This document shows, piece by piece, positions 1-5,222 of a stretch of DNA of 5,222 nucleotides. A program made the position numbers and the translations under genes. This stretch comes from Xanthobacteraceae bacterium (GTDB taxonomy: Bacteria > Pseudomonadota > Alphaproteobacteria > Rhizobiales > Xanthobacteraceae), in the NCBI GenBank assembly GCA_030043175.1, contig JASHYD010000185.1, positions 1-5,222 of the forward strand, written 5' to 3'. The notes beneath the pieces are model-generated. The model was not told the origin of the DNA. It did no database searches and worked only from the letters and a program-made list of their open reading frames with translations. Numbering within the stretch: the first letter of the stretch is position 1; each line of letters opens with the position of its first letter.

Positions 1-522
1 TGGGCTGCGGAGGCAGCCGGCGATGTCGTCGACCTTCAGCGCGGCTTGAGCGCGGCGAGCCTGATGGATCCGTCGGCAACCACCCAGGAAAGTATCACCG
101 GAACGATGTTCGGGCTTGGCATGGTCGCGCTCTACTTCGGCTCCGGCGGCCTTTATCTGACCCTGGGCACGGTTTACGACAGCTATGCCATATGGCCGGC
201 TGCGAACGCGTTTCCCATTTTCACCCCCGCCGCGAGCGAACTCTTCGTCCGCTTGCTCGACAACATCATCACCATGGGGCTGGTCCTGGTCGCTCCGATT
301 GTGGTCTTCCTGCTGCTGGGCGACATCTTGCTCGGGCTCGTTTCGCGGGCAGCGCCACACCTCAATGTCTTTGCGCTCTCGCTCAGCGTAAAAAACCTCG
401 TCTTCGCGCTTCTGATTGTCTTGTATTGCGCTTTCCTGATCACCTACATGGGGACCGATCTCAGCTCGCTCCTGGGCGCTGGAAGCGACCTTGAGAGCAT
501 GGGCAAGCCGCCTTCGCGGTAG
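1..522 (+). CDS. sctT: Type III secretion export-apparatus protein SctT (RhcT/HrcT/YscT), C-terminal part, 5'-truncated by window
   Basis: Inner-membrane component of the T3SS export gate, which forms the SctR/S/T pore through which substrates leave the cytoplasm. The frame is open from base 1, so the gene starts outside the window; 173 residues and a TAG stop are visible. The first visible residues contain the GD-x3-D-x-QRG motif (residues 7-15) followed by SL-x-DP. This is typical of SctT, whereas flagellar FliR has LQMG there. Hydrophobic segments lie at about 34-60, 90-112 and 131-149. Between the last two is the signature SRAAPHLNVFAL (about 115-126), the SctT/FliR PQLNVF-type motif. A TTG at 46 is an internal codon and not the start, because homology continues upstream of it. 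In many rhizobial clusters sctU follows sctT directly; here no sctU follows, so this seems to be the last gene of its operon. Identification is strong at family level; the symbol rhcT would apply if the host is a rhizobium. Confidence 0.92.
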   Translation, partial: WAAEAAGDVVDLQRGLSAASLMDPSATTQESITGTMFGLGMVALYFGSGGLYLTLGTVYDSYAIWPAANAFPIFTPAASELFVRLLDNIITMGLVLVAPIVVFLLLGDILLGLVSRAAPHLNVFALSLSVKNLVFALLIVLYCAFLITYMGTDLSSLLGAGSDLESMGKPPSR

Positions 523-842: not shown

Positions 843-1988
843 TTATACGTCCATGACGCTGTCCAGCATCTCCTGGGTGCCCAGACCTACGAACTGACCA
901 AAATTTGCGCCGGTTAACAGAGCAAAGTTTCCGCCGTTTGCTGCCATACCGGTCCCGAATGTTCCGAAGCCCATTGGGGCATTGGTCGCGTCCGCATCGA
1001 TATTTCCGGTGTTCGGGCCGATTTCGACACCGTTCTTCGCGAGGATGAGATTGCCATCCGGGGTGGCGGTCATCTGGACGCCTCCGGGGAGGGTATCGTC
1101 AAGGGCGTAGCCTTGTCCCGGCATGTTCTGCGTGTGAACGCTTCCGTTCGCGAAGGTAAAGTTCGCGGCCTGATCGCCGTACGTAACGACGACGTTGCTC
1201 ATCGTATTGGGGCCGGTGGGGTTGCTTGTCGGCGTGATGTTAATTTCGGCGCCGTTCGGAAGCTTGATGGTGGCGTTGTTATGCTGGAAGTCGGCGACGC
1301 CCCCGTTGGCCGTGCTTATGTGGGGATCCCCCCAAACAGAGAAGCTCTGATTGGTGCACGTATTGGTGACTGTGAGTTTGCCCGATTCATCGGCGCTCGC
1401 TGTGATCTTGTAGTCGCCAACAGTTATCGTGTTGTTAGCGGTGTCTACGGACATTCCTCCGCCAGCAAAGCCGTTACCGCCGTATTGACCGCCCATAGGA
1501 CCGCAGGGGCCGTGGCCGCCCATCCCGTCAAGATACGGCGAGCCGCCCATCGGATACTGGCCGCCGGTAGGATTGAAGGGATCCTGGCCGCCCGCCCCGG
1601 TCAAAACCGGCGAGCCGCCCATAGGATCGGAAGGGTCCATCGGGTTCATCCCGCCTGGCATCATCCCGCCTGGCATCATCCCGCCTGCCATCAGCGAAGC
1701 GCCCTCCATTATGAGCTGGGTTCCCTGGTTGATGAGTTGCATGCCGTCCCGGACGTCGCCCATCTCAATAAGTTGCTCACCCTCCGCCACCTCTTGTTCC
1801 CCGTCCCGAATGAGGGTCTCGCCAAGCTTTTGTCTGCCGCCATCACCGCAGCCGCCAGGCCAGCGACATTGGCTCATGTAGTTCGCTAATTGCTGCCCAC
1901 CCTGGCCAACCTGCCCCGTCAAATCAGGTTGCCCGTTTTGAGTGATGCCGAAACCAAAGCGAATGGCAGCGCCTGTCGTGACAGTCAT
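843..1988 (-). CDS. DUF1521 / metal-ion-inducible autocleavage (MIIA) domain protein, putative T3SS-secreted protein (NopE-like)
   Basis: A 381-aa protein without Sec signal or membrane segment. Start chosen at ATG 1988, which has AGGAG seven bases upstream; an in-frame GTG at 2027 has no ribosome site. Order: N-terminal 55 residues (possible secretion signal, two Cys in CRWPGGC); glycine-heptad segment at about 56-103 (G every 7 residues with one 5-residue step, I/L/V four after most glycines); Gly/Pro/Met-rich repeats to about 178; DUF1521-like domain at about 178-327 with WGDPHIS (GDPH at 220-223); Gly/Phe-rich tail ending EMLDSVMDV. In Bradyrhizobium NopE1 and a Vibrio coralliilyticus homologue, DUF1521 cuts itself between Asp and Pro of GD-PH when Ca2+ or other divalent metals bind; the same Asp-Pro bond is present here. 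NopE1 has two such domains, this protein one. Closeness to sctT supports T3SS export, but export is inference. GDPH also occurs in von Willebrand D-type domains, a less likely alternative. Confidence 0.85.
   Translation of the reverse strand: MTVTTGAAIRFGFGITQNGQPDLTGQVGQGGQQLANYMSQCRWPGGCGDGGRQKLGETLIRDGEQEVAEGEQLIEMGDVRDGMQLINQGTQLIMEGASLMAGGMMPGGMMPGGMNPMDPSDPMGGSPVLTGAGGQDPFNPTGGQYPMGGSPYLDGMGGHGPCGPMGGQYGGNGFAGGGMSVDTANNTITVGDYKITASADESGKLTVTNTCTNQSFSVWGDPHISTANGGVADFQHNNATIKLPNGAEINITPTSNPTGPNTMSNVVVTYGDQAANFTFANGSVHTQNMPGQGYALDDTLPGGVQMTATPDGNLILAKNGVEIGPNTGNIDADATNAPMGFGTFGTGMAANGGNFALLTGANFGQFVGLGTQEMLDSVMDV
1320..1331 (-). other. GDPH autocleavage site codons of the MIIA domain
   Basis: On the minus strand GGG GAT CCC CAC encodes Gly-Asp-Pro-His (residues 220-223), preceded by Val-Trp and followed by Ile-Ser. 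In DUF1521 proteins the peptide bond between Asp and Pro is the metal-triggered self-cleavage site. Cleavage here would release an N-terminal piece of about 221 residues, carrying the heptad and Pro/Gly/Met repeats, from a C-terminal piece of about 160 residues. Confidence 0.7.
1482..1625 (-). repeat. Two tandem 72-bp units encoding a 24-residue Gly/Pro-rich repeat
   Basis: Residues 122-145 and 146-169 of the DUF1521 protein both begin PMGGSP and both end GGQY. By my alignment 16 of 24 positions are identical. The unit at 1554-1625 comes first in the protein and the one at 1482-1553 second. The second copy replaces DPF with GPC and so adds a cysteine. They form part of the flexible linker before the cleavage domain. 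Confidence 0.75.
1651..1695 (-). repeat. Three tandem 15-bp units encoding MPGGM-type repeats
   Basis: The plus-strand unit CCGCCTGGCATCATC occurs at 1651-1665 and 1666-1680, with a degenerate copy at 1681-1695. On the coding strand it gives MAGGM, MPGGM, MPGGM. The near-identical DNA suggests recent slippage expansion, so copy number may vary between strains. Confidence 0.8.
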
Positions 1989-1995
1989 CGGGAGT

Positions 1996-2000
1996 CTCCT
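1996..2000 (-). promoter_or_regulatory. Ribosome-binding site of the DUF1521 gene
   Basis: AGGAG on the minus strand, seven bases before ATG 1988. It decides the start in favour of the ATG over the in-frame GTG at 2027, which has no comparable site. The protein is therefore 381 aa, not 394. Confidence 0.8.
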
Positions 2001-2044
2001 AAAGGTCGTCTCTTTGAACAGTCTCACAACCCACTAGGAGAAAT

Positions 2045-2074
2045 TAGGACGCGTTTTTGACAGGTCTGTGGCAA
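2045..2074 (-). promoter_or_regulatory. Promoter-like element, copy A, upstream of the DUF1521 gene
   Basis: Read on the minus strand: TTGCCA-N5-CTGTCAA-N-AAC-N-C-N2-CCTA, ending 56 nt before ATG 1988. It aligns without gaps over 30 nt with the element at 3042-3071 (22 of 30 identical by my count). TTGCCA is one base from a sigma70 -35 box, but no good -10 follows at 17 nt. The GTCA and CCTA ends recall the rhizobial tts box, but the core of that box (TCGAAAGCT) is absent. The cognate regulator is unknown. A GCGA-N3-TCGC inverted repeat (2078-2088) lies just upstream. Confidence 0.55.
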
Positions 2075-2766
2075 CAAGCGAATATCGCAGGAAATATAGG
2101 TATTATAAAGAATTTCGTACAATGTATACAGTGCGGTTCGACTTTTAGACGTCATAAGGGCGCGCCGAGGAGGTTGAAGACCGTACCATGTCATCACAAA
2201 ATTTATTTTGGCAGACATAAATCACACGCAGAATTGTCAAATATTAGCATTGTCATCGTGTTGCGGACGATAATATAGAGCCCGCGCCTTACCTGCGGTA
2301 TCGCTTCGCAAAGGTGCGCGGCGGAAGGAGTTCGTCGCCGCAAGCCGTTTTTCGATTGCAGGCCCTGGAAACCGCGCGCCGTGCCGGTACGACGTCCACC
2401 TGATGACCTCACGATGGGGGTCTCCGTCAGCGCGCCCCTGTCGCGTTCCATGCATGGGACCTCGCGGGCACCTTGGGGCTCCATACCGTATTCGCCCTTG
2501 CTCTTGCGCTACTCGATCAACTCCTCAATTCGACCGGCCATGCCGATGCAACCCAATCGCAAATCTGCGTCCTCCGCGTCAGGCGTCGAGCTTTTCCTGG
2601 GAACCCTTTCCTCAAGGAGAGCCTGCCCGGATTGCACGATTGGCGCGGGCACTTTGGAGATCTCGCTTTTGCGGCCTCAATCGGTTTGTCGGTCGATGCC
2701 GGACAATGGCGCCTTACGGAACGCAGGCGGAAAATCATCTGAATACATAATTATGTGTACAATATA
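2075..2766. other. Central part of the divergent intergenic region: AT-rich arms around a GC-rich block
   Basis: The interval 2075-2280 is distinctly AT-rich, with several TATAAT-like stretches. It contains a direct repeat of ATTGTCA (2233-2239 and 2249-2255, 16-bp period) and GTACAAT at 2117-2123. From about 2281 to 2740 the sequence is GC-rich again, then AT-rich with a perfect 12-bp palindrome ACATAATTATGT (2745-2756). GCGCCTTAC occurs near both ends of the GC-rich block (2284-2292 and 2709-2717). Open frames across the block exist in several frames on both strands, and none has a ribosome site or recognisable product. The base-composition jumps suggest inserted or degraded DNA. Confidence 0.45.
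2473..2742 (+). pseudogene. Unrecognised open frame, possible gene remnant
   Basis: I do not recognise this frame. It has a TTG as nominal start and no ribosome site. The open reading extends upstream of the TTG in frame with sensible residues (WDLAGTLGLHTV). From the TTG it gives 89 residues: a hydrophobic stretch (VFALALALLDQLL), then an arginine-rich and Trp/Phe/Gly-containing part ending at TGA 2742. By hand count, codon positions one, two and three have about 70, 48 and 61 percent G+C, a weakly coding-like pattern. Overlapping open frames in other frames compete with it. It could be the decayed 3' end of a gene or chance. Confidence 0.18.
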
Positions 2767-2956
2767 ATCCGGGTCATGATCCGTACGTGTGCCCGTGCCA
2801 ACTTTGGATGAGTGGCGGTGGCGCGCGGGAGGGCTCGCGATAGGGCTTGCAATAGAGCTTTGCTCAGGTTTCGCGCTGCACCGGCTGGACAGGGGCGTCC
2901 GCCCGCCACCATAGCAGAGACGTTGGCGTGTCGGCTACCCCGGATAGTACCCGGAT
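2767..2956. mobile_element. 190-bp imperfect fold-back element, MITE-like
   Basis: The left end reads ATCCGGGT-N4-ATCCG (2767-2783). The reverse complement of the right end reads ATCCGGGT-N3-ATCCG (2941-2956). Further in, GCCAAC on the left pairs with GTTGGC on the right at the same depth, about 30 nt from each end. GTGGCGG (2812-2818) pairs with CCGCCAC (2903-2909) at a depth of about 46-48 nt. So about 54 nt of each arm align as an imperfect inverted repeat around a centre with a degenerate 12-bp tandem repeat (2831-2854). TGTACA-N-TATAA lies outside the left end (2756-2767, its last base overlapping the first element base) and again 16 nt beyond the right end (2973-2984), not directly abutting as a clean target duplication would. 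No transposase frame is inside. It could be a non-autonomous transposon relic or a structured RNA. Confidence 0.4.
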
Positions 2957-3004
2957 AGCAGATTGAATGCATTGTACATTATAAGATACGCAGTATTCTT
3001 AGTT

Positions 3005-3032
3005 ACGCAAAAAGCTGAAAACTATTTTGCGT
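3005..3032. promoter_or_regulatory. Perfect 8-bp inverted repeat with 12-nt spacer, candidate operator
   Basis: ACGCAAAA (3005-3012) and TTTTGCGT (3025-3032) are perfect reverse complements. Their centres are 20 bp apart, about two helical turns, as expected for a dimeric activator or repressor. It ends 9 nt upstream of the element at 3042-3071. A further TACGCA (2987-2992) repeats the TACGCA overlapping the left arm (3004-3009). No equivalent copy is seen beside the DUF1521 gene. Confidence 0.4.
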
Positions 3033-3041
3033 TTCTCGTTC

Positions 3042-3071
3042 TTGCCATAAGACTGTCAATAACCCAGCCTA
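3042..3071 (+). promoter_or_regulatory. Promoter-like element, copy B, upstream of the His7 protein gene
   Basis: TTGCCA (3042-3047), five variable bases, CTGTCAA (3053-3059), one variable base, AAC (3061-3063), then CCTA (3068-3071). It ends 51 nt before ATG 3123. This matches copy A at 2045-2074 in sequence, orientation relative to the gene and distance to the start, which argues for a common activator or sigma factor. Confidence 0.55.
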
Positions 3072-3110
3072 GCCTGCGCGAGACGTCTAGATTGTTATAG
3101 GCACGGTTGG

Positions 3111-3117
3111 AAGGAGG
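3111..3117 (+). promoter_or_regulatory. Strong ribosome-binding site of the His7 protein gene
   Basis: AAGGAGG, a near-perfect Shine-Dalgarno sequence, sits five bases before ATG 3123. It supports both the start and the reality of this low-complexity gene. Confidence 0.85.
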
Positions 3118-3122
3118 AGTCG

Positions 3123-3590
3123 ATGGTAGGTGCAGTTACATCGTTCTCAAGTACACTCTCACTCCCAGGCGGCGGCAGCCTTACGACGACGGCGACGGCG
3201 GCGGAGACGCGCGGCCCTGGTGAGCCGGGACATCATCATCACCACCACCACTCCGATTCTTGCGATGGCTCTAATGCTGCGCAAGGTTCTGGTTCTCCGC
3301 AAGCTATGCAAGCTCAAGGCAATGCGGACATACAGAAAGGCGAGGCGGACATTGCGGCCGGACGTGTCGGGAAAGGCGAGCGTGAGATACAGCAAGGTCA
3401 GAACCTATTAAACGCCTCGCAATCTGCCCCCCCCTGCTCACCACCCAGCTCCAGCAGCGGCGGGCAGTCGTCGAATCCGCTGAATCCGATGTCCCTCATA
3501 CAAGCCCTCTCCGGCGGCGGCGGTGCCGGCGGTGCCGGTGGCCTCGGCAGCTTCAACCTTTCGTCGGTCTTGGGAATGATGTGCGGCTGA
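3123..3590 (+). CDS. Small low-complexity protein with natural His7 tract and glycine-heptad segment, putative secreted protein
   Basis: I do not recognise the family. The 155-aa product has no Sec signal peptide or membrane helix. Residues 1-30 are Ser/Thr/Gly/Ala-rich, as in T3SS N-terminal signals. Seven consecutive His (37-43, nt 3231-3251) are followed by SDSCD. Residues 66-92 carry glycines spaced 7-7-5-7 with Ile or Val-type positions between (GNADIQK, GEADIAA, GRVGK, GEREIQQ), the same pattern as residues 63-89 of the divergent DUF1521 protein. After it come a Pro/Ser linker (PPCSPPSSSSGG), a small hydrophobic patch (NPMSLIQAL), a Gly/Ala-rich run and the end SSVLGMMCG. Harpins are similarly Gly/Ser-rich but normally lack cysteine, and this has three. 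A strong ribosome site and the promoter-like element shared with the DUF1521 gene support a real, co-regulated gene. Metal binding by the His tract is plausible but unproven. Confidence 0.8.
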   Translation: MVGAVTSFSSTLSLPGGGSLTTTATAAETRGPGEPGHHHHHHHSDSCDGSNAAQGSGSPQAMQAQGNADIQKGEADIAAGRVGKGEREIQQGQNLLNASQSAPPCSPPSSSSGGQSSNPLNPMSLIQALSGGGGAGGAGGLGSFNLSSVLGMMCG

Positions 3591-4126: not shown

Positions 4127-5222
4127 TCACTGATGAGATTGGACGAAGTCGTCGAGGGCGGCACGCACCCGCGCGATGACGCTATCCCACGCGTGTGTTT
4201 CATCCTGCCGAAATAGGCGGATAGTCGGGTACCATGGGCTGTCTTCACGATCGAGCAGCCAACGCCAGTCGGCGTTGAACGGTAACATCACCCAAACAGG
4301 CTTTGCCAGTGCGCCAGCCAAGTGAGCGACGCTGGTATCCACGGAGATAACGAGGTCCAAGGTCGATATGAGCGCTGCCGTGTCCGCAAACGTCTCTAGC
4401 TCATCGCCGAAATGGAGAAGATCGCTTTGATCTCTCAGCACTGTCGCGTCGTCGGGGCGAACGTCCTTCTGCAGACTTACAAATGTAGCATTGATGTCCA
4501 GGAATGATAACAAAGAGCTGAGCCCAATCGATCGATTATGGTCGTTGAAACTCGCTGGGTTGCCAGACCAGGCAAGGCCGATCCTGGCGCGATGTTTGCG
4601 GCTTGCGAGCCTTGCGTCCCAATGTGCCAAGGCCTGCGGGGCTCGCTGATAGAGCGCCGTGGAGGGTATCGTCTCAAGTCGCGTCCCGAACGCCAGCGGC
4701 AAGCTGAGCAATGGGCAATGCATATCGAAATCGGGCAAGGGGTCGCCCCTGGATACGATCTGCGCGCCGCTGATGAGAGTGGTCATCAGCTCTTGCAGTG
4801 ACCTTTGGACTTCAAGAATCACACGTGCGCCGCGCTCCGCCACCAGCGGCACGTAACGGCAGAACTGGATCGTATCACCCAAGCCTTGGTCAGCGTAGAG
4901 AAGAATAGTCTTGCCTCGGAGGTCGTCCCTTCCGGTCCATAGCGGTTGCACAAAGCTGCGCTTGACCGTCCGGAGTTGCTTGGTTTCCCACCGCGATTCA
5001 TATTTTTCCCAACCTCGACCAAAGTCTCCAATCAGGAGGCGGCAAACGCCTTCATTGGCAAGCGCCTCGGCATAGCCCGGCCGCAGTTTGAGCGCGCGAT
5101 CGTAGCTCGCCAGCGCCTCCTCGAACCGCTTCAGCGCCTGCAGGGTGTTGCCGCGATTCAAAAGTGCCTCGGCATAGTCAGGCCGCAGTTTGAGCAACCG
5201 GTCATAGCTCGCCAGCGCCTCC
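4127..5222 (-). CDS. TPR protein with C-terminal heptosyltransferase-like (GT9-type) domain, 5'-truncated by window
   Basis: The frame is open to the right edge, so the start lies outside; a TTG at 5197 is an internal Leu codon. About 364 residues are visible. They begin in TPR repeats of 34 residues (ALASYDR-LKLRP-YAEAL pattern), followed by GDFGRGWEKYESRW, the usual junction. Next comes a Rossmann-type region with LLYADQGLGDTIQFCRY (close to the GDxIQFxRY loop of this family), RIGLAWSGNP, NDHNRSI, then LVISVDTSVAHLAGALAKPVWVMLP and WRWLLDREDSPWYPT. The DT-x3-HLAGAL segment matches the nucleotide-sugar-binding part of glycosyltransferase family 9. Proteins of this TPR plus GT9-like architecture are common in Bradyrhizobium and other Rhizobiales, usually with many TPRs; substrates are unknown. 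It ends in TGA at 4127. Its strand is opposite to sctT, so it belongs to a separate unit. It may be an unrelated neighbour of the T3SS island. Confidence 0.88.
   Translation of the reverse strand, partial: EALASYDRLLKLRPDYAEALLNRGNTLQALKRFEEALASYDRALKLRPGYAEALANEGVCRLLIGDFGRGWEKYESRWETKQLRTVKRSFVQPLWTGRDDLRGKTILLYADQGLGDTIQFCRYVPLVAERGARVILEVQRSLQELMTTLISGAQIVSRGDPLPDFDMHCPLLSLPLAFGTRLETIPSTALYQRAPQALAHWDARLASRKHRARIGLAWSGNPASFNDHNRSIGLSSLLSFLDINATFVSLQKDVRPDDATVLRDQSDLLHFGDELETFADTAALISTLDLVISVDTSVAHLAGALAKPVWVMLPFNADWRWLLDREDSPWYPTIRLFRQDETHAWDSVIARVRAALDDFVQSHQ
5064..5222 (-). repeat. 102-bp tandem repeat encoding TPR units
   Basis: GCCTCGGCATAG starts at 5064 and again at 5166, exactly 102 bp (34 codons) apart, and the bases after it are highly similar (GGCCGCAGTTTGAGC in both). 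One complete unit and more than half of the next are in the window. High DNA identity between units indicates recent duplication or gene conversion, so the number of TPRs outside the window may vary. Confidence 0.85.

Follow-up and report, generated by a model that had tools for sequence, protein, structure and literature searches.

Genes and paired elements at the locus

The window (the whole stretch of DNA that was analysed, 5,222 nucleotides long) begins inside sctT, a gene of the T3SS export apparatus, and therefore represents the edge of a T3SS cluster. It also carries a divergent pair of genes, a DUF1521 gene on the minus strand and a gene for a histidine-rich protein of 155 amino acids on the plus strand, each preceded by a 30-nt element. 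The features to which we refer below are as follows.

1..522, plus strand: end of sctT, T3SS export apparatus (PF01311, E 3.5e-34; 93% identical to P0015)
843..1988, minus strand: DUF1521 gene with a NopE-type domain (PF07481, E 9.9e-11; ATG at 1988-1986)
2041..2046, minus strand: −10-like TAATTT, 10 nt past the second half-site; putative −10 function
2045..2074, minus strand: 30-nt element before the DUF1521 gene, matching the plus-strand element, with copies in the related genome G001 and, diverged, in G002
2074-2068 and 2063-2057, minus strand: half-sites TTGCCAC and CTGTCAA of the minus element
3042..3071, plus strand: 30-nt element before the 155-aa gene, matching the minus-strand element
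3042-3048 and 3053-3059, plus strand: half-sites TTGCCAT and CTGTCAA of the plus element
3070..3075, plus strand: −10-like TAGCCT, 10 nt past the second half-site; putative −10 function
3123..3590, plus strand: gene for the 155-aa histidine-rich protein, with GGAGGAG just upstream

The DUF1521 gene has AGGAG just 5′ of its start, and its domain is one that we take to be related to NopE1 and NopE2. Both of these are secreted proteins (PMC6506597, in excerpt). No Pfam match was obtained for the 155-aa histidine-rich protein, whose single database relative, P0135, aligns at E 2e-9 with 32% identity across 41% of the query. Kinship between the two window proteins was considered and rejected, their similarity in BLASTP not being significant (best E 0.58). 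Histidine runs are present in the 155-aa protein, in its relative P0135, and in the DUF1521 proteins P0012 and P0014. P0135 and the SctT protein P0016 are listed with the same longest-contig figure (46372), and may share one contig. At 4127-5221 of the window, on the minus strand, TPR repeats and a weak match to glycosyltransferase family 9 adjoin the T3SS genes.

The two elements read TTGCCACAGACCTGTCAAAAACGCGTCCTA (minus strand, 2074-2045) and TTGCCATAAGACTGTCAATAACCCAGCCTA (plus strand, 3042-3071). Aligned without gaps, they share 22 of 30 letters, and the distances from their downstream ends to the start codons are 56 nt (ATG at 1988-1986) and 51 nt (ATG at 3123), respectively; recounting and remeasuring gave the very figures of the original prediction. 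It had also described the surrounding intergenic DNA as otherwise unrelated, and comparison of the printed flanks of the two 30-mers revealed no comparable block. Among ungapped 30-nt matches between the 300-nt regions upstream of both genes, this pair ranks first. When these regions were dinucleotide-shuffled and a match was counted at any offset, at least 22 identities were reached in 2 of 2,000 pairs (one with 22 and one with 24). Unlike such any-offset matches, the real pair lies at nearly equal distances from both starts.

Copies of the element and specificity of its pattern

At E 1e-3, 14 homologues of the DUF1521 protein were found, of which 11 come from JGI metagenomes. No match was found on plasmids, searched nearby and by the DUF1521 protein, and an alignment search of genome_contigs and viral_contigs for DUF1521 gave none. 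Scanning the reference genomes for SctT yielded 54 loci. The nearest SctT (75% identical) belongs to Hyphomicrobiales Centralia_MAG_73 (locus L001, genome G001), and the second nearest (64% identical) to Xanthobacteraceae JOPF206 (L002, G002). In L001 the DUF1521 gene adjoins sctT in the same arrangement as in the window, and CTGCCACATGCCTGTCAAACAATCGACCTA is located 70 nt before its ATG. This copy agrees at 18 of 21 fixed positions, the best match outside the window among the 54 loci, where the next best reaches 16, and it shares 23/30 and 20/30 letters with the two window elements. The corresponding place in G002, 86 nt before the DUF1521 ATG, is occupied by CCGCCATAACCTCGTCAAGGATTGCTCTTA, which is 16/30 identical to each window copy and was assigned by its place and anchors, not by overall identity.

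The 34-nt consensus of the elements is YYGCCAY-N4-YYGTCAA-N10-TANNNT. Searched as YYGCCAYNNNNYYGTCAANNNNNNNNNNTANNNT, it gave one exact match each in G001 and G002, in both cases the DUF1521 promoter. Allowing one mismatch added one match in G001, and the reversed control gave none. That additional site falls within long open frames, at a point 30 kb along the contig. Across 391 genomes of the family there were four exact matches, namely the G001 and G002 promoters plus a single site in each of G205 and G271. The reversed control had two across these 391 genomes. Because the sites themselves were used to write the consensus, recovering them is no test; the near-absence of others is. An earlier, differently weighted pattern of 19 positions, with up to three mismatches, found one site in G001 (the DUF1521 promoter), one in G002 (C196, which is not the DUF1521 promoter), none in G003 and three in G004, and its reversed control found 0, 1, 1 and 5, respectively. 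The promoter copy of G002 has five mismatches to this pattern.

These results bear on two checks proposed along with the original prediction. Conservation in related genomes was observed, the copy before the DUF1521 gene being clear in G001 and diverged in G002. As to random occurrence across genomes, the consensus stands nearly alone, its reversed control also having two matches, and the 19-position pattern recovered the G001 promoter but picked another site in G002. The two copies and the near-unique consensus lend good support to the proposal that the window elements are a common binding site, and we regard the element as a probably genuine regulatory site of the window's lineage.

Predicted regulator and alternative readings

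All four elements (two in the window, one each in G001 and G002) have the same order: a half-site, 4 nt, a half-site, 10 nt, and TANNNT, whose final T at position 34 falls outside the 30-nt element first noted. In the site layout of OmpR/PhoB-kind response regulators, such a gap separates the repeats from the −10. Direct repeats of this sort are bound head to tail by OmpR/PhoB-type regulators (PMC4415409, in excerpt), and the 7-4-7 layout is that of Pho boxes and of OmpR/PhoB-kind response regulators (PMC4415409 and PMC3131613, in excerpt). In TtsI of NGR234, a receiver domain is combined with a DNA-binding domain of the OmpR/PhoB type, and the tts boxes of pNGR234a have the 7-4-7 layout. The T at position 34 was present in 34 of 47 distinct tts-type boxes (L063, L120, L121, L134-L168, L045-L049), which were found by a pattern demanding TA at 29-30 and come in many cases from related strains; as a sign of a −10 it is suggestive only. 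The terminal TA of the tts box resembles the first two letters of a −10 hexamer TANNNT.

On the basis of this layout, we propose, with a probability of roughly 0.6, that the elements are promoters of an OmpR/PhoB-type response regulator and diverged relatives of the tts box, read by a regulator related to TtsI. The two 7-nt half-sites, 11 bp apart, would bind a head-to-tail dimer at the usual place of the −35, and the 10-nt gap and a weak −10 (TANNNT) would follow downstream. Transcription would start near 2034 on the minus strand and near 3082 on the plus strand, into the DUF1521 and histidine-rich genes, and the regulator would be an activator of the OmpR/PhoB family. We infer binding, activation, start sites and regulator alike, the identity of the regulator being the weakest step: a TtsI relative is our first guess, and PhoB is its main rival.

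No clear TtsI was found in G001 or G002, both of which are MAGs of unstated completeness; their best TtsI-like proteins are 35% and 32% identical, respectively, the level of ordinary response regulators. Nor was a PF00486 protein found on the T3SS contig of either genome, that of G001 stopping 193 nt upstream of the element. The TtsI-like genes G001:C97, G003:C171 and G003:C523 were put aside as ordinary pairs, lying next to histidine-kinase-like frames (by eye). The suggestion of an undescribed T3SS regulator thus keeps some force for want of a clear TtsI in the two genomes.

The Pho box, bound by PhoB, consists of CTGTCAT repeats with a 4-nt spacer (PMC3131613, in excerpt). It shares with the elements the 7-4-7 layout and, in the window copies, the second half-site CTGTCAA. 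On this reading, PhoB would activate the two T3SS-linked genes under phosphate scarcity. Compared with CTGTCATN4CTGTCAY, the plus copy scores 11/14, higher than any other window position (fraction 0.0001), the minus copy 10/14 (0.00067), the G001 copy 11/14 (0.00017) and the G002 copy 9/14. Relative to background, the window half-sites lie closer to the Pho box than to the functional tts consensus, and both G001 and G002 contain PhoB. However, the G002 copy leans to tts (8/11), and positions 4 (C) and 18 (A) of all four elements depart from the Pho box. In G001, moreover, the repeats before a PstS-like gene (named by eye) are CTGTCAC-like. The target genes differ as well, being predicted T3SS substrates or their neighbours, and tts boxes precede related genes elsewhere. 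We consider Pho boxes an unlikely explanation.

Less probable still is a regulator of another family that reads the inverted repeat TTGCCA-N6-TGTCAA. A candidate would be the GntR-like protein (named by eye) whose gene lies beside sctU in both G001 and G002 (L060 8316-9311 and L198 3989-4723), the two proteins being 76% identical. The inverted symmetry holds at 5/6 in both window copies but drops to 4/6 in G001 and 2/6 in G002, whereas the direct-repeat symmetry stays at 4-5 of 7 across the elements. We rejected the inverted repeat because its symmetry fades in the relatives.

The original prediction had also considered an alternative sigma factor, and indeed no sigma-70 promoter (TTGACA, 16-18 nt, TATAAT) was found at the elements: both matches in 1900-3200 (shuffle mean, 1.0) lie elsewhere, and a sigma-70 promoter with its own −35 was rejected. 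The half-sites spaced by 11 bp, the 10-nt gap and TANNNT in all four elements nevertheless fit a response regulator working with the main sigma factor, and the same gap and hexamer occur in tts-type boxes, which makes this reading very improbable. Least probable of all is that the likeness arose by chance or through a recent local duplication and has no function: 2 of the 2,000 shuffles do reach the match, and the consensus has two further sites outside T3SS and a matching reversed control, but G001 and G002 carry copies at the corresponding place.

Comparison with the tts box and other T3SS regulatory sites

The tts box is the switch for turning on the T3SS in root-nodule bacteria. The consensus of this rhizobial box, bound by TtsI, is given in PMC3009519, and its functional form, GTCAGN5CGN2AGN10TA, in PMC4990936 (both in excerpt). 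The elements share with it the 30-nt length, the 7-4-7 repeat spacing, TA at 29-30, G.CA in the first half-site and G..A in the second. They also share its place upstream of T3SS-linked genes, DUF1521 genes included: the window elements adjoin sctT and precede the DUF1521 gene, and hence lie upstream of predicted T3SS/effector genes. The half-sites differ, agreeing with the functional consensus at 7/11 in both window copies, 7/11 in G001 and 8/11 in G002, and the window copies lack the canonical half-sites TCGTCAG and TCGAMAG. A matrix built from 19 canonical boxes scored the window copies at −12.6 and −18.4 (ranks 72 and 257 of 10,386 positions, or 86 and 264 with a larger pseudocount), whereas the 19 true boxes, each left out in turn, scored 16 to 43. 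A canonical tts box was rejected on these scores, with the layout nevertheless kept. The earlier statement that the element does not match the tts box is therefore correct by its letters, but it missed that the layout is that of the tts box.

PF07481 was found in 22 of the 391 family genomes, and seven genomes have a weaker, window-like match (E 2e-19 to 1e-13). Inspection of all seven loci revealed a canonical tts box upstream of the window-type DUF1521 gene in five (G344, G108, G372, G287 and G078) and the variant box in two (G001 and G002). G108, G372 and G078 are Bradyrhizobium, and G344 and G287 are Bradyrhizobium-like by likeness only. Each of these five (L175-L179) encodes a TtsI of a second type, sharing 50-52% identity with NGR234 TtsI, at a distance of 21-24 kb from its DUF1521 gene.

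A relaxed tts-type pattern, drawn up with the sites already in view, matched twice in the window (0.036 expected), twice in L001, L060 and L169 together (0.17 expected) and 12 times in the five tts-box loci (0.23 expected). On pNGR234a it matched three times in L121 (0.23 expected) and three times in L063 and L094 (0.53 expected). No match was found in 42 loci of the Rhc-II side (Mesorhizobium, Labrys and others), against 2.4 expected. One match lies in L197. Before the structural T3SS operons of L001, L060 and L169 no box was found, the relaxed pattern occurring there only before the DUF1521 gene. In the lineage of the window, the box may control the secreted proteins rather than the machine.

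In the SctT tree, the window falls in the half that contains Rhc-II of pNGR234b, and Bradyrhizobium loci group with Rhc-I; the supports (84/86 and 93/84) are below the mark for firm branches. Since the tree splits the window from the Bradyrhizobium tts loci, box and injectisome may not share one line of descent. Typical regulatory boxes have been reported lacking on the Rhc-II side. We tentatively suggest, at somewhat short of even odds, that an uncultured lineage on this side has its own operator for the DUF1521 and histidine-rich genes, whose OmpR/PhoB-type reader would be neither TtsI nor PhoB and would have changed together with it away from the TtsI circuit.

The reading of the elements as diverged tts boxes is favoured by a pair match beyond shuffles, copies in two genomes, near-uniqueness of the pattern, and the layout of the tts boxes before related genes. 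Against it stand the tts matrix scores, the better Pho fit, the 35% and 32% TtsI identities, the split in the SctT tree, patterns framed post hoc, and the absence of the box from structural operons.

In plant pathogens, T3SS genes likewise have regulatory sites, the hrp, hrpII/PIP (TTCG pairs) and HrpL (GGAACC/CCAC) boxes, whose usual sequence and layout would be unlike those of the elements. With a defined 34-nt operator, one could look for the regulator and for secreted proteins of an uncultured lineage. If the TA of the tts box begins a −10, TtsI would act as PhoB does, which is testable in model rhizobia.
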